Source of the DNA: a virus
IMG/VR virus record: IMGVR_UViG_3300005541_000291
Span: 1-39,996 of that record
DNA length: 39,996 nucleotides
Direction: 5' to 3' (one strand)
Position numbers and translations under genes: made by a program. The notes below the pieces were generated by a model, which worked only from the letters and a program-made list of their open reading frames with translations, did not search any database and was not told the origin of the DNA. Shown piece after piece: positions 1 to 39,996 of the stretch. Each line of letters begins with the position of its first letter. The first letter of the stretch is position 1.

Positions 1-1116
1 ATGGCGAACCTTCATGCAACCATCATCGTTAGGACTGTCCGGGACGGTCACCGCAAATTCACCGTCGTAGATAAGGATTGTGGGCCAGCAGATTATTACA
101 TCCGTTTCTGTATGGGTTCTAAGCCCGTAACCCGCAAAGCAGGTAGTACCTGGGAGCAAGCCGAACTGGCAAAGCTGCGGCAGGAGAGCAAGCTGCGGGG
201 TGGTGTAATCGTCCCGGAACTGAAGCCGAACTTGGCTCATCACGTCAGCTTGACCATCACCGCTTACCTTGAGCAGTTGCGAGAGAACCGAAGACCAGCA
301 CGTTCTATCAAGGCAAAAGAAACCGAACTCCGTGATTTTGCCCGGCGCTGCCGGAAGCAATACGTTGAGGAAATCACCCGCAAGGACTTGATCGCCTTCC
401 GCAACACACTGACAGACGAAGGCTATGCCAACGTCACCGTGCTGAACCGTATGATGTCGGTCGTCACTTGGCTCAAACAAAATCCGCTCAAGCCCGTAAC
501 GGGCTTACTCAAAAAGGAAGATTGGCCGGACAAACCTGATACATCCCCGCATCCATATTCAGAAAAAGAACTCAAGGCAATGATGGAAGCCGCTACACCG
601 GACGAACGATTATTGCTCCGCTTCTTCCTTGGCAGCGGGATGCGAGAACAAGAAATTGCTCATGCCGAACGCGAAGACCTCAAGGACACCTACATTGAGG
701 TCAAGCCCAAACCTCAGTATGGGTGGAAACCAAAGACGCGGGCAGGGGAGCGCAAGATTCCTCTGGGAGATGCCCTACTGGCCGATTTGAAGGCGCATTG
801 CTCTAAGGGACTCCTATTCCCGAATCCAACCACTGGGAAGCCCGAGGGTCACTTTCTCCGCATCATCAAAGCAATCGCGGGACGCGCTGATGTAACGGGC
901 GCGGGCTGTCACCGCTTCCGCGATACCTATGCCACAGATCAAGTGAGGGCGCGTGTATTGGACCTGCGCGACATTGCCAAAATCATGGGGCACGAAAATA
1001 TGGAAATGATGAAGCTATATGCCGCGTTCGTTGATCTGGAATCCGAACAGGCGAGGAACGCAGCTAATGCCTCGGACCGCTTTGCGGCGAAACCTGAACT
1101 CGTTAGGAGTGCCTAA
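1..1116 (+). CDS. int: Tyrosine recombinase / phage integrase
   Basis: Site-specific recombinase that would integrate and excise the phage chromosome. The 371-residue protein has an arm-type N-terminus, a helical core-binding domain (about residues 80-165) and a catalytic domain (about 185-350). Catalytic residues are visible: Arg215 in GSGMREQE, a Lys near 245, His304 and Arg307 in HRFRDTY, His331 in MGHEN, and the nucleophile Tyr340 nine residues later. The start codon is the first base of the window, so the ribosome-binding site, promoter and attachment site cannot be seen. It sits alone upstream of the early promoter at 1221. Two BglI-type sites (GCCN5GGC) lie inside it at 160-170 and 772-782. 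The family call is secure; the target site is unknown. Confidence 0.95.
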   Translation: MANLHATIIVRTVRDGHRKFTVVDKDCGPADYYIRFCMGSKPVTRKAGSTWEQAELAKLRQESKLRGGVIVPELKPNLAHHVSLTITAYLEQLRENRRPARSIKAKETELRDFARRCRKQYVEEITRKDLIAFRNTLTDEGYANVTVLNRMMSVVTWLKQNPLKPVTGLLKKEDWPDKPDTSPHPYSEKELKAMMEAATPDERLLLRFFLGSGMREQEIAHAEREDLKDTYIEVKPKPQYGWKPKTRAGERKIPLGDALLADLKAHCSKGLLFPNPTTGKPEGHFLRIIKAIAGRADVTGAGCHRFRDTYATDQVRARVLDLRDIAKIMGHENMEMMKLYAAFVDLESEQARNAANASDRFAAKPELVRSA

Positions 1117-3755: not shown

Positions 3756-4141
3756 GAACCCCAGAACAATGCGCCCGCCATAGCGCCTTCATGAAAGAGA
3801 GAATGGCGCATCCCGAACATCGCGCCCGTCAGAGTGCGGCTACGAAAAGAAGTATGACGCCTGAGCGACTCGCACAGTTACGCGCCTCCACTAAGGCCGC
3901 TTGGGCACGCGGCGTTAAGTTCCCGCCACGCGGCAAACAGAAGAAACCCAAAAAGACTCCACGCGGTAGATATAAGCATCCTAAGCCTCCCGTTTACTTC
4001 TATCGTCCTCAAGTACCCCCGGAGTTGCGCTTTGAGTGGGAAAAGATTCTCCAATCACACAACTTGAGTATGGCAGCGGGGATACAAGATTATTTCATTT
4101 TCTACGGCTGGGAAGAGAATTGCTTGCAAGACAACATTTGA
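3731..4141 (+). CDS. Basic phage protein with C-terminal EWE...FIFYGW domain
   Basis: Protein of 136 residues. The N-terminal 65 residues are Arg/Lys/Ala-rich helices, similar in feel to the DNA-binding repeats beside phage HNH enzymes, followed by a very basic Lys/Pro/Arg linker. The last 40 residues carry EWE.IL..H.L.M.AG....FIFYGW.EN, which recurs in the gene at 4456-4815 (18 of 29 positions identical without gaps). GGAG sits only one base before the ATG, so initiation may be weak or coupled to the upstream gene. A DNA-binding role is inference. Confidence 0.6.
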   Translation: MPAFNKYVRTPEQCARHSAFMKERMAHPEHRARQSAATKRSMTPERLAQLRASTKAAWARGVKFPPRGKQKKPKKTPRGRYKHPKPPVYFYRPQVPPELRFEWEKILQSHNLSMAAGIQDYFIFYGWEENCLQDNI

Positions 4142-4815: not shown

Positions 4816-5084
4816 GTGGTTGTGACTTTCAATTAAAGAAGTTCTCCGTACCAATCGCTGTAGACCTGCCAACGAAAATCTACGAGATTCGTGTCGGCAT
4901 CCGTTGTGACAAATGTAAGAAGCGATTCAGCGCAAAATACCAACCTCTCGGTACTCGCTGTGATAATTGCGAAAAGCTATGCGACCCGGAGTATCAACAC
5001 CTCCGCACACGACTGCTTCAATCCACTGGCGAAAAAGAATTCTGTGAATGTACAGAAGGATATTGCGAATGTATCCGCTCGTAA
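4812..5084 (+). CDS. Cysteine-rich putative multi-zinc protein
   Basis: Protein of 90 residues whose ATG overlaps the previous TGA and is preceded by GGAGG. A zinc-ribbon-like pair (CDKC ... CDNC) is followed by CDPEY, and the C-terminus ends in CECTEGYCEC, giving at least nine cysteines. It overlaps the glycosyltransferase start at 5069, so it is coupled to the glycosyltransferase island. Unrecognised. Confidence 0.6.
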   Translation: MSGCDFQLKKFSVPIAVDLPTKIYEIRVGIRCDKCKKRFSAKYQPLGTRCDNCEKLCDPEYQHLRTRLLQSTGEKEFCECTEGYCECIRS

Positions 5085-5728
5085 GCTGCCTCATGCCGAC
5101 GTACAACCGTCGTGAGTTTATTCCCCGCGCTCTACGCAACTTTGCTTCCCAAACGTACCCCGACCTTGAATTGATCGTCGTTGACGATGGTTCTGACCTC
5201 ATCGCTGACCTCATTCCGCGTGATGATCTCCGTATCAGTTATTTCTGGTCCGACCAAAAAGCAAATCACGGCGAGAAGATGAATATCGCCGCTGGGTTCG
5301 CTGACGGCGATTACTGCTGCGTTTGGGATGACGATGACTGTTATGCCCCAGATCGTGTATCGCGGCAGATCACGCCGCTCGTAGGCACGGAGAAGATAGT
5401 TTCAGGCACCAGTTCCCTTTATTACTACAAGCACGGCGGCCAACAAGCCTACATCTACGATTATCCCACTCAGCCCGCGCCGTGGATTGGCGCGATAGCG
5501 TTCCGTCGCGATTACTGGGAACATAACGAATTTGACGATCTACGTTCCGGCGCTGATTTCACTTGGCTCAAGAAGATTCAGTATGACCAACGAGTTGATC
5601 TACACGATCCCAGTCTTCTGGTTTGCGCGATACACGACACCAACGCAGCGCCCAAACCAATCGGCACATACATCAAGCCAATAGAGTGGTTCCGCCTACC
5701 GGAGTGGTTCCGTAATGCCGCTCTCTGA
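5069..5728 (+). CDS. Family 2 (GT-A fold) glycosyltransferase
   Basis: Protein of 219 residues that would transfer a sugar from a nucleotide donor. The N-terminus (MYPLVSCLMPTYNRREFI) is the classic GT2 beginning, followed by ELIVVDDGSD (35-43) and the metal-binding DDDD (87-90). An acidic motif near SGADF could hold the catalytic base. I chose ATG 5069 over 5048 because AGAAGGA sits upstream and family homology starts there. It overlaps the upstream gene, and the next glycosyltransferase starts before its end, so both are likely co-translated. The acceptor could be host surface polysaccharide, a virion protein or DNA; nothing here decides that. Confidence 0.85.
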   Translation: MYPLVSCLMPTYNRREFIPRALRNFASQTYPDLELIVVDDGSDLIADLIPRDDLRISYFWSDQKANHGEKMNIAAGFADGDYCCVWDDDDCYAPDRVSRQITPLVGTEKIVSGTSSLYYYKHGGQQAYIYDYPTQPAPWIGAIAFRRDYWEHNEFDDLRSGADFTWLKKIQYDQRVDLHDPSLLVCAIHDTNAAPKPIGTYIKPIEWFRLPEWFRNAAL

Positions 5729-7184
5729 TATCAGCATCCTCATTACCAGCTTCATGCGTCCCGGTTATTTGACGGAGTGCCTCAAGCGCATTAGAGAACG
5801 TCTGCCGGAATGCCCAATCATCGTCGTAGACGACAGTGGCGACGGCGTGAAAGACCCAGCCATCACCGTCAAGTGTCCGTTTGATTCCGGTCTCACTGTG
5901 AAGCGCAACGCCGGGGTGAAAGTCTGTAAGACGAAATATCTTCTACTTGGCAGCGATGATTTTGACTTCGGTTCAATAGAAGCACGTCAAGGCGTCATCA
6001 AGCTGTATGGAGTGTTAGAGAATTATCCTGATCTTGATATCGCTGCTGGGCGGCACAACAACATCCCATACGAAGGATTCCTGGATTACGTTCCCGGCCA
6101 ATACATCAAAGAGACTCGCCTGGTACCAAGAGGCAATCCGCCGTTTTACAAGGTAGATCTGTGCGTCAATTATTTCCTCGCAAAGACCAAAACGCTGATT
6201 GAGGTTTCGTGGGATGAAGACATCGTTCCCATTGGCGGTGAGCACGGACAGTTCTTCCTTCATCTAAAGGAAGCACGCAAGAAAGTCGCTTGGGTTCCCG
6301 GCGTCAACATAAAGGCACTCCCGTACACGCCCGCTTGGCAGCATCCCGATTATGCGATGTACCGGAGTAGAGCAAAGAGTTTCGGTCACAAGATTTTCCT
6401 CAAGAAGCGCAACGTCAAGGATTATTACGGATTTGACGAACCGCTGCCTAAGCAGAGTCAAGAATTCATTACACACACTCCCAAACCAACACCACCTCCG
6501 CCCGGCGCAAAGCTGCTAATCGCTATCACGTCCTGTCATCGTTACAGGTCACGCACAGCACAGCAACGCGACAGTTGGCTGCGCGACATCAGAGGAATTG
6601 ATTATCGTTTCTTCCTCGGCAAAGCACCTAACGGTGAGCAACCTACCAAGGACGAAGTCTTTCTTCCCGTTGAAGACAATTACGAAGCACTCCCGTTGAA
6701 AGTTCAAGCAGCTTGCGCTTGGGCATTAGAGAACGGTTACGACTACCTGTTCAAACTGGACGATGACGCATATTGCGTTCCTTCACGACTCCTGACTTCC
6801 AATTTTGCTCGCGCAGATTATGTGGGTCGTTATCGCGGAGCATCTGACTGGAAACGACCGGGCGACAATCCCTCAGGATATGCCAGCGGCGGCCCCGGTT
6901 ATTGGCTTTCACGCAAAGCGATGCAGATCGTAGTGGCAGCCAAACATAACGGTGATTGGGCAGAAGATCGTTGGGTTGGCAATGTGTTGGCGAAAGCAGG
7001 AATCAAATGTACGCACGAACCGAGATTCTGGCTTTGGCCTTGGCCGCACGGCGGGCAAAGTAACAATCTTGGAGATTTCATCACAGCCTGCGATATCAAT
7101 ACCAATCTTGGCGGTATCGCAGCTTCAATGCCCGAAACCCACCGCGTTTACAAACAAACGGGGAAATTGCCAGTTCCGAAGTAA
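5715..7184 (+). CDS. Two-domain glycosyltransferase: GT12-like domain fused to GT31-like domain
   Basis: Protein of 489 residues. Residues 1-250 look like a GT-A enzyme related to beta-1,4-GalNAc-transferases (GT12): VVDDSGDG (37-44), GLTVKRNAGV then TKYLLLGSDDFDF (73-85), and VNYFLAKTKTLIEVSWDE (151-168). A Pro-rich linker (252-264) joins a GT31-like (Fringe/beta-1,3-galactosyltransferase) domain: RDSWLR (285-290), FKLDDDAYC (346-354) with the DDD metal motif, SGGPGYWLS (391-399) and EDRWVG (417-422). It overlaps the GT2 gene by 14 bases. Both family assignments come from motif memory and are moderately firm. It probably builds a short glycan with two sequential sugars. Confidence 0.75.
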   Translation: MPLSDISILITSFMRPGYLTECLKRIRERLPECPIIVVDDSGDGVKDPAITVKCPFDSGLTVKRNAGVKVCKTKYLLLGSDDFDFGSIEARQGVIKLYGVLENYPDLDIAAGRHNNIPYEGFLDYVPGQYIKETRLVPRGNPPFYKVDLCVNYFLAKTKTLIEVSWDEDIVPIGGEHGQFFLHLKEARKKVAWVPGVNIKALPYTPAWQHPDYAMYRSRAKSFGHKIFLKKRNVKDYYGFDEPLPKQSQEFITHTPKPTPPPPGAKLLIAITSCHRYRSRTAQQRDSWLRDIRGIDYRFFLGKAPNGEQPTKDEVFLPVEDNYEALPLKVQAACAWALENGYDYLFKLDDDAYCVPSRLLTSNFARADYVGRYRGASDWKRPGDNPSGYASGGPGYWLSRKAMQIVVAAKHNGDWAEDRWVGNVLAKAGIKCTHEPRFWLWPWPHGGQSNNLGDFITACDINTNLGGIAASMPETHRVYKQTGKLPVPK

Positions 7185-37241: not shown

Positions 37242-37272
37242 AAAAAGGCCCGGCGCATTTCAGCACCGGGCC
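37242..37272 (-). terminator. Rho-independent terminator for the leftward gene
   Basis: GGCCCGG (37247-37253) pairs with CCGGGCC (37266-37272), extended by two further pairs across a mismatch, with a six-base loop. Read leftward it is followed by a T-run (complement of GAAAAA at 37241-37246), giving a good terminator for the minus-strand gene. Read rightward it lacks the T-run but may still slow polymerase after the Cys-rich gene. Confidence 0.75.
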
Positions 37273-37298: not shown

Positions 37299-37604
37299 TT
37301 ATTTAATACCCGCCCAGAGAGCTTTCACTTCATCAGGATCAGCCTTGAATCGTTCGCAGAGGTCCTCGGGCGTCATATTGAGCCGTTCTGCGCGGGTGAC
37401 CCACGACAGCGCGTAGCCAGACTTGGTGAAAACAGCGGTCACGGCTTGCTTGCTCGGACGCCCGGCCAACACGGCGTATGTCGCGCCCTTCTGAACCGCG
37501 CTCGCGTTCTTGGCCGGGAGCTTCACCACTGGGGTTTCCTTGTCGTTCGCTTGGGCCTTCTTGACATCAACAACCTTGCTGGTTTTCACTTTTCGCTTCG
37601 CCAT
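37299..37604 (-). CDS. Leftward basic protein of unknown function (lysogeny-gene candidate)
   Basis: Protein of 101 residues on the minus strand, start at 37604 with AAGGAGGG upstream. The N-terminal 35 residues are very Lys-rich (MAKRKVKTSKVVDVKKAQ), followed by a compact C-terminal part (GRPSKQAVTAVFTKSGYALSWVTRAERLNMTPEDLCERF) that could include a helix-turn-helix. It has its own promoter and terminator and runs against the late genes, the usual sign of a gene expressed in the lysogen (moron). Regulatory or DNA-binding function is only inferred. Confidence 0.7.
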   Translation of the reverse strand: MAKRKVKTSKVVDVKKAQANDKETPVVKLPAKNASAVQKGATYAVLAGRPSKQAVTAVFTKSGYALSWVTRAERLNMTPEDLCERFKADPDEVKALWAGIK

Positions 37605-37632
37605 TTTTGTTCCCTCCTTAGGAACGAAGCGA

Positions 37633-37661
37633 AACATAGCTCATGTTGCTAAGAGCGTAAA
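37633..37661 (-). promoter_or_regulatory. Candidate promoter for the leftward gene
   Basis: On the minus strand TTTACG (complement of 37656-37661) and TATGTT (complement of 37633-37638) are separated by 17 bases, placing the transcription start near 37626 and leaving a leader of about 20 bases before the start codon at 37604. A weak but well-spaced match to sigma70. Confidence 0.4.
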
Positions 37662-37707: not shown

Positions 37708-38118
37708 ATGACCTATGATCAAACCGATGTTCAGAATATGGCGTTGTGTGCTTGGAAGGAATCACGCGGCGACGGAATTGGTGCTTGCTACGCGCAAATG
37801 CACGTAGTGATGAACCGAGTCAAAGCTCCTGATTTCCCCAAGACCGTTCACGATGTCATCTACCAGAAAAATGCGTTTACATCCATGAGCGTTCCCACCG
37901 ACCCGGAATACAATTTGGTTCCTCCGGCTGATGACGCAGTCTGGCAGGCCTGCTTAACCGATGCTCCTAATGTACTGGGCGGGGATGATGACCCTACCGG
38001 GGGAGCGGTCTGGTACAGCAACGAAAAGAACGTCACGTCAGGTTGGTATAAAGACAATATTGAAACCGCCGCTCACCCCATCACTGTGGTCATCGGGCAC
38101 CACACCTTCAGAAAATAA
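37708..38118 (+). CDS. Endolysin: SleB-type cell wall hydrolase
   Basis: Protein of 136 residues of the Hydrolase_2 (SleB/CwlJ) family, which cleaves peptidoglycan glycan strands as a lytic transglycosylase. The signature is ALCAWKESRGDGIGACYAQMHVVMNRV (catalytic Glu18), followed by DFPKTVHDVIYQKNAFT and a C-terminal VIGHHTF. No signal peptide, so export would need a holin. It is the expected late lysis gene. No strong ribosome-binding site is visible. Confidence 0.85.
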   Translation: MTYDQTDVQNMALCAWKESRGDGIGACYAQMHVVMNRVKAPDFPKTVHDVIYQKNAFTSMSVPTDPEYNLVPPADDAVWQACLTDAPNVLGGDDDPTGGAVWYSNEKNVTSGWYKDNIETAAHPITVVIGHHTFRK

Positions 38119-38160: not shown

Positions 38161-39063
38161 GTGTTCAACCGCTACCGAGACCAACAGTTCAAACGATATT
38201 CCGAAGCCAGGGAGTACTTCGTCAAGAATCCTGACTTGCTCATTGAGTTGGAGCACTTCTTCACTGAGTATGTGAAAAAGCTAATCATCACGAATTGGGT
38301 TGCCTTCGCACGGGACTATGACGAGGCCTCCTACCTGTACCCGTTTTGGCAAAACTATCCGCCGGACGAGCGCGGGCGTCAGCCGAAAGGAGACCAGTTC
38401 CCTTGGATTGAAGTTGGGGAGCACGCTATCGGAGCAAAGATACCACTGCTTCTGACTGCTGATTTCAAGGTGCGAGATCCCGGTATTCCAACGGGCGCGG
38501 ACCTGAGATTCGTAGTGGCGTCAGAAACGATTGCCAAAATAACGAAAGGTTTCACCGACTCCGCTTGGCTCACCATTGAGATCAAGAGTGTTGGGCCGAG
38601 GGATGATGCTGACCACACCGTCATGAGCCACAATCAAGTCTCTGGCGACGGGGTGTGGGCCAAGGCCGAAGACGGCGTGAAAAACACGATTGTGAAGGCA
38701 ACCGGGGCCGTAACTTCTCACGATTTTCATTGCGGCATCCCTCCCATCTACGTCTTGTCCGACATGACGGTCGCCCCGTTTGTAAACATCGTGGTAAAAC
38801 CAGTCTACAAAATGCTTTCGGTTGGTCGTAGCGAGAAGGATGGAGGCCAACCACTCGGACGAATAACACTTGCCTGTATCCCGAATGGCATTCTCTTGGT
38901 GATCACACCGGGGTATTTGAAGAAGTTTCCGGGGCTTCTCTTTCCCGGAAAAGATGACAAAGACAAAAACCCACTGAAGGTACGAGCGCGAGTAAGTTTT
39001 GAAATCCTGCGAAAAATAGCGGCTTGGCGGATGTGCGATATTACCGCGCCCTCAGGCAAGTAG
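38161..39063 (+). CDS. Type II restriction endonuclease, BglI family (GCCNNNNNGGC)
   Basis: Protein of 300 residues closely resembling R.BglI, as I recall it, over its full length. Examples are the NYPPDERGRQPKGDQFPWIEVGE block (66-87), IKSVGPRD (141-148), NQVSG (158-162), IPPIYVLSD (193-201) and FPGKDDK (261-267). The PD-(D/E)XK catalytic residues are in place: Asp114 in PTGAD, Glu140 and Lys142 in IEIKS, matching BglI Asp116/Asp142/Lys144 with a constant offset of two (Asp to Glu at the second). The GTG start aligns with the BglI N-terminus. The 3' end overlaps the opposite methyltransferase by 12 bases. BglI specificity is inferred from similarity. Confidence 0.9.
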   Translation: MFNRYRDQQFKRYSEAREYFVKNPDLLIELEHFFTEYVKKLIITNWVAFARDYDEASYLYPFWQNYPPDERGRQPKGDQFPWIEVGEHAIGAKIPLLLTADFKVRDPGIPTGADLRFVVASETIAKITKGFTDSAWLTIEIKSVGPRDDADHTVMSHNQVSGDGVWAKAEDGVKNTIVKATGAVTSHDFHCGIPPIYVLSDMTVAPFVNIVVKPVYKMLSVGRSEKDGGQPLGRITLACIPNGILLVITPGYLKKFPGLLFPGKDDKDKNPLKVRARVSFEILRKIAAWRMCDITAPSGK

Positions 39064-39996
39064 ACGCGGCTGGGCAAGAGCCTGGTCAACATTCTCACGC
39101 GCAAGCTCAACGTAGTGGCGTTCTTTCTCAAAGCCGATGTAATGGCGTTTATGCCTGATGGCGGCGAGTGCTGTTGTTCCCGAACCCATAAACGGGTCAA
39201 GCACTGTATCGCCCTCATCTGAGTACAGACGGATCACGCGCTCTGCCAGCTTTTGCGGGAATTTCGCTTCATGGTCATCATTCGCACGCACACTTTCTAT
39301 ATACCAAATCCCCCTCATTCCCCAATCCTTCCATTCGCCGGGGTTCAATTTGTTTCTGTCTATGATTTGTTGACCGGGCTTCCAGAAGACATAGAGGTCT
39401 TCAAACTCATGGACGGCCTTCAAGGAATTAGATGTCCACTTTGAGTTCGCCCAAGCGGGGTCCTTTGCCCAAATCCTGTGGTCGTGCAAATACAGGCCAG
39501 CGGCGTAGGCGTATTCTTCAAGCGGCCCGCCAACGAGCTTCACTCTGGTCTGTGCGGCGTGCTTTCCGCCCCGGATATTGTTCCCGTTCAATCGGCGGTC
39601 AACCGTCTGTTCGCTACACCCTAAATGTGCGGCCAACTCGTCACGGTTGTAATTGGGGAATTGCGCCTTGGCCTTCAAGACCATTTCCCGCGTTACCTCT
39701 GATTTGTGCATCGCCACGTTCATCGCTTGGTAGCGCGGAATCTCATCATCCGCAAAACACAATATGTCGGCGATATTGATCACCATGAAGCCACCGGGCT
39801 TCAGCGCCGCCGCGTGGCCGTGAATAACGGCCTTCAGCATCTGCTGCCAGCTTTCGTACGTCTCCCCCTTTTCGTAGCCCTTGCCAACAAAATATGGAGG
39901 CGACCAAAAGCTGAGAGCGACACTTGATGGCTTGAGTTCAAGAATGAGGTGTTCTGCGCGACCGTGATGAATGCGATCAACTTCCAAATGTTTCAT
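39052..39996 (-). CDS. DNA methyltransferase of the restriction-modification pair (beta-class, SPPY type)
   Basis: Protein of 314 residues on the minus strand. The catalytic motif IV is WSPPY (31-35) and the AdoMet motif DPFMGSGTT is at 267-275, the order of beta-class amino-methyltransferases (N4-cytosine or N6-adenine; SPPY favours N4-cytosine). FPQKLAERVIRLYS (about 246-259) is also typical. An inserted segment (about 112-150: NRDELAAHLGCSEQTVDRR) looks like a helix-turn-helix and could aid recognition. It should protect GCCNNNNNGGC from the convergent nuclease. The start codon is the last three bases of the window, so its promoter is not seen. Confidence 0.88.
   Translation of the reverse strand: MKHLEVDRIHHGRAEHLILELKPSSVALSFWSPPYFVGKGYEKGETYESWQQMLKAVIHGHAAALKPGGFMVINIADILCFADDEIPRYQAMNVAMHKSEVTREMVLKAKAQFPNYNRDELAAHLGCSEQTVDRRLNGNNIRGGKHAAQTRVKLVGGPLEEYAYAAGLYLHDHRIWAKDPAWANSKWTSNSLKAVHEFEDLYVFWKPGQQIIDRNKLNPGEWKDWGMRGIWYIESVRANDDHEAKFPQKLAERVIRLYSDEGDTVLDPFMGSGTTALAAIRHKRHYIGFEKERHYVELARENVDQALAQPRLLA

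Follow-up and report, generated by a model that had tools for sequence, protein, structure and literature searches.

Does the right-hand end of a viral record hold a genuine BglI-type restriction-modification (R-M) system, is that system carried by the phage, and what would it do there? The window analysed here is an entire IMG/VR record of 39,996 nt (IMGVR_UViG_3300005541_000291). It encodes an integrase, terminase, portal, protease, capsid, tail and endolysin, and it ends in two intact, convergent open reading frames that the original prediction had taken for such a pair. The first, the BglI-type restriction endonuclease R (positions 38161 to 39063, plus strand, 300 aa), starts with GTG and ends with a TAG stop at 39061–39063; its partner M (positions 39052 to 39996, minus strand, 314 aa) is a beta-class SPPY (m4C-type) DNA methyltransferase whose TGA stop lies at 39052–39054. 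The 3' ends meet tail to tail in an overlap of exactly 12 bases (39052–39063), as had been claimed; in relatives of the pair the overlap length ranged from −14 to +59. We consider it probable that this is a complete BglI-family type II module, held as accessory cargo at the late-gene/att end of a siphovirus-like prophage and restricting unmodified DNA in the lysogen.

Identity and predicted target of the endonuclease

When R was compared with all PDB chains (phmmer), BglI (1DMU) was the sole real match, with an E-value of 2.7e-76 and 44% identity, residues 1–288 of R aligning on residues 1–290. The Pfam model Endonuc_BglI (PF14562) scored 391 bits for a cut-off of 25. The GTG start is supported by the protein sequence, which opens with MFNRYRDQQF and thus matches the MFNxYRxxQF of the homologues. 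We then modelled R with AlphaFold2 from an input alignment of the window protein and its bacterial relatives that contained no BglI row. The predicted fold had a pTM of 0.86 and superposed on 1DMU with TM scores of 0.86/0.87 and 43% identity (Foldseek); apart from SfiI, considered below, there was no other confident match. These results confirm that R is a BglI homologue over its whole length, in agreement with the end-to-end alignment first proposed.

The residues of BglI involved in catalysis (E87, D116, D142 and K144) and in base contacts (D150, K266, D268, R277 and R279) are known from a study in which SfiI was modelled on BglI (PMC548270). We located their equivalents in an alignment (A1) of 13 sequences, comprising window R, BglI and 11 bacterial homologues. 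The catalytic equivalents in R are E87, D114, E140 and K142, so that the placement of Asp114, Glu140 and Lys142 at the BglI active site, at a constant offset of 2, was borne out. All five base-contact equivalents (D148, K264, D266, R275 and R277) are conserved, and they are invariant in the 13 sequences. The same is true of every catalytic position except 140, which is Glu in window R and Asp in the other 12 of the 13. The PD-(D/E)XK motif permits Glu, the canonical alternative at the second acidic position of the superfamily. R is therefore expected to be active, though this is not certain, and a Glu in place of the Asp that all aligned relatives share could alter its activity. In either case the phage enzyme provides a natural variant at a catalytic position that is otherwise Asp in the aligned BglI-family enzymes.

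Since all five BglI base contacts are kept, the predicted target of R is GCCNNNNNGGC; we regard this recognition as a strong prediction, and cleavage would be expected at GCCNNNN^NGGC. The window holds 8 GCCNNNNNGGC sites for 12.9 expected, and 7.7% of synonymous shuffles gave a count as low. We rejected this avoidance as evidence: a comparable shortfall is seen in phages that lack R, and the count for an unrelated spacer falls even lower.

The partner methyltransferase

M carries SPPY at residues 32–35 and motif I (DPFMGSGTT) in its C-terminal part, at residues 267–275, meaning that motif IV precedes motif I. It scored 142 bits with PF01555 and 462 bits, end to end, with the PADLOC model MTase_II, and its fold matched beta-class methyltransferases, m4C and m6A enzymes among them. 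SPPY is typical of m4C enzymes, and this product fits a predicted site with no A among its fixed bases; M is thus predicted to make N4-methylcytosine.

The helix-turn-helix (HTH)-like insertion described from the sequence was also found. It spans about residues 103–137 (positions 39586 to 39690, minus strand) and forms three helices in the model (103–112, 118–125 and 129–137), with a mean pLDDT of 81–89 over residues 101–130; Pfam matches to HTH_23 and HTH_28 were weak. The insertion was present in all 15 aligned M sequences, the window included, and the motif CxEQTxDRRLxGxNIR was conserved in all RM-associated M as well as in the viral orphans L021–L024. It is thus a family feature, which perhaps serves target recognition or autoregulation. 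We did not retain it as a novel one: the best PADLOC type II methyltransferase model covers M over its whole length, and the HTH recurs in all close relatives.

The late-gene end of the record and a sister prophage

As originally noted, the pair follows the endolysin. The gene concerned, a cell wall hydrolase (positions 37708 to 38118, plus strand; PF07486, 2e-16; PHROG endolysin), is the final recognised late gene ahead of the R-M pair and lies 42 bases before R. At the opposite end of the record stands a tyrosine integrase (positions 1 to 1116, plus strand; PF00589, 9.5e-14; PHROG integrase, 3.9e-35). The bounds of the record coincide exactly with the ATG of the integrase on the left and the ATG of M on the right. 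Such a coincidence at both ends points to a record trimmed at gene edges, with its own att sites outside it. The R-M pair therefore occupies a trimmed edge, and if the record is read as a prophage, attP would fall between the integrase gene and M.

Close to this end, positions 37299 to 37637 hold a minus-strand gene for a lysine-rich protein of 112 aa and of unknown family, running opposite to the late genes, to which gene a terminator-like hairpin at 37247–37272 belongs. It looks like a separate moron beside the R-M slot.

A location at the very edge raises the question whether the pair is part of the host chromosome beside the prophage, or of a nearby island, and entered the record through the way the provirus boundary was called. 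The two exact gene starts at the record ends speak for this, as do the relatives of the pair, which are mostly found on bacterial contigs, and the synonymous codon use of R, which is atypical with respect to the phage genes (z −4.5). However, the GC and GC3 contents of the R-M genes match those of the phage, and an HNH phage gene is just as atypical in codon use (z −4.7), so that composition fails to separate the R-M genes from the phage genes. The gap between the endolysin and R is also only 42 bases.

The most informative comparison came from a sister prophage, G001 (IMGVR_UViG_3300050821_005745; 45,273 bases), whose genes match those of the window one after another when its orientation is reversed (capsid 74%, TerL 56%, ORF 33836 84%). 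At the end equivalent to the right end of the window, it encodes a BglII/BstYI-family endonuclease (PF09195, 4e-20; BstYI, E 1e-6) beside an SPPY methyltransferase (PF01555, 8e-51). G001 also contains a perfect 47-bp direct repeat, at 3981–4027 and 44716–44762, the first copy of which overlaps a tRNA-Pro(TGG) (3949–4025). The integrase abuts the copy at 44716–44762 and the R-M genes abut the copy at 3981–4027 (attL; L037:3981-5690). The R-M genes of G001 thus sit within the prophage, inside the att repeats, in the slot held by the BglI pair in the window.

By analogy with this one sister genome, carriage of the window pair by its phage is likely, and a host origin becomes unlikely. The claim that the pair is phage-borne accordingly stands as probable, on the support of the sister prophage, the window record itself ending at trimmed gene edges. 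Altogether, one slot is filled by unrelated type II R-M modules in the two sister prophages, and its content seems to be swappable between related prophages, on the strength of two phages and two occupants. Searches with the window integrase and capsid profiles yielded no further informative sister prophages; one candidate, L052, was discarded, having only a fibre-type region in common.

Two other features of these genomes were noted. The tRNA-Pro of G001 is adjoined on its far side by a second integrase gene (L037:2660-3928), which suggests another element in tandem. In the window, positions 5715 to 7184 encode a protein of 489 aa that is GT2-like in its N-terminal part and galactosyltransferase/Fringe-like in its C-terminal part; it is also kept in G001 (48%) and could act in DNA or cell-surface modification.

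Distribution, possible roles and known systems

The original prediction held BglI-type enzymes to be rare and a phage copy to be notable. In one scan covering 84,980 species genomes, R turned up at 17 bacterial loci, mostly at 53–60% identity, in Cyanobacteria, Nitrospirota, Spirochaetota, Bacteroidota, Margulisbacteria, Fibrobacteres, Lentisphaerota and Planctomycetota. Rarity thus has to be qualified by this spread over many phyla. The second part held: searches of 50,697 phage and 72,556 plasmid records detected no R, two scans of IMG/VR revealed no intact BglI-like R elsewhere, and a profile search of viral contigs using R gave no match. A partial viral match in L002 (30%, residues 2–113) was dismissed as a chance match within a 1971-aa ORF, in a stretch without Pfam match.

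A full-length M, 59–70% identical to that of the window, adjoins R at 15 of the 17 bacterial loci, in convergent orientation except in L017; of the two others, L014 stops at R and L019 has an M fragment only. Divergence of R and that of M were strongly correlated (r=0.89 for 14 pairs, 0/5000 permutations), as expected of a module travelling together. The BglI-type pair is an old mobile module.

This module also decays. The sole trace of R elsewhere in IMG/VR is in L020 (positions 4926–6288; record G007, a 60 kb viral contig), where a full M (69%) stands convergent to the last 64 codons of R (residues 234–297). L020 is a decayed R-M system that left an orphan phage methyltransferase, and it shows one route to such orphans, loss of R, which is an uncommon route according to a pan-genome study. 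Further viral contigs (L021–L028) have relatives of M at 42–57% with no R detected; one of them (L022) is clearly a phage, with terminase and portal genes. Among the bacterial loci, R is broken in L018 (L018:10001-11654, two pieces about 730 bases apart), L016 (L016:10001-10726) and L019 (L019:7375-8285); L018 and L016 retain an intact M, and in L019 M is decayed.

Such losses raise the possibility that the pair is kept mainly for M, which would shield phage DNA from a BglI-type restriction enzyme of the host, R being a hitchhiker that is inactive (through the D142E-equivalent change) or on its way to being lost. The viral M relatives lacking a detectable R, the remnant in L020 and the intact M beside a broken R in L016 and L018 are all in keeping with this, as is Glu140 itself, and solitary methyltransferases are frequent in mobile elements (PMC4176335). 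Nevertheless, R of the window is full length and keeps all its other key residues, and Glu is a canonical residue at the position concerned; we therefore find this explanation doubtful.

Defence cargo remains the most likely role, function being the least settled part of our analysis. R would form a BglI-like dimer and cut GCCNNNN^NGGC, and M would mark that site with m4C in the DNA of both host and prophage. Incoming phage and plasmid DNA without this mark would then be cut by R in the lysogen, which would amount to lysogenic conversion; cells losing the prophage would be punished as a side effect, and the contents of the slot would be exchanged between related prophages. The specificity and activity of the pair, its expression in the lysogen, its protective role and its location inside its own att sites are what we infer here.

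Were punishment of such cells, by post-segregational killing, the main selected effect, the pair would be an addiction module by which the lineage retains the prophage. This behaviour is reported for type II R-M systems on mobile elements generally (reviewed in PMC4176335). However, an integrated prophage is already inherited stably, and neither a C protein nor another timing gene was seen; addiction as the main effect is thus quite unlikely.

Expression bears on a further possibility. A crude scan, which is a weak test, found no sigma-70-like promoter for R. Together with the position of R 42 bases behind the endolysin, this makes late read-through possible, and R may depend on it, staying silent during lysogeny. 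In this phage group, the slot separating the lysis genes from the attachment site could be reserved for the exchange of complete type II R-M modules (BglI-type here, BglII/BstYI-type in G001), with R switched on along with the late genes and directed chiefly, during induction, at co-infecting DNA that is unmodified; we give this scheme very little probability.

Turning back to cargo that protects the lysogen, there are precedents for functional type II R-M systems on temperate phages. In the temperate phage NrS-3 of Nitratiruptor, R.Nph3I and M.Nph3I are active and were proposed to protect lysogen and prophage (PMC10734518). That system is likewise a complete type II R-M on a temperate phage and was verified biochemically; unlike R, its endonuclease is a BglII-domain enzyme (RGATCY) that resembles the one of G001. 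The interesting parts of this analysis are the swapped slot content and the contig with the R remnant. P2-like phages and P4-like satellites carry anti-phage systems that replace one another at fixed positions, type II R-M being among them in P4-like elements (PMC9122126). The window shares with these hotspots a fixed slot with apparently exchangeable defence content, but it belongs to another phage group; its slot is placed between the late genes and att, and two occupants were seen.

Among the enzymes, SfiI (PF11487, PDB 2EZV) belongs to the same branch as R, with 248 bits for its Pfam model and a Foldseek E-value of 8e-9. R is nevertheless far nearer to BglI (TM 0.86 versus 0.55; 43% versus 12% identity), and it keeps the equivalents of BglI D150 and D268, both of which are replaced in the published SfiI model (PMC548270). 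R.BglI itself (1DMU, PF14562) is thus the closest known system: the whole-length identity of 44%, the TM score of 0.86 and the catalytic and base-contact residues are shared, and M is the SPPY-type partner expected for a site in which only G and C are fixed. In contrast to R.BglI, the window enzyme has Glu, not Asp, as its second acidic catalytic residue, sits on a virus record and is known here from its sequence and model.
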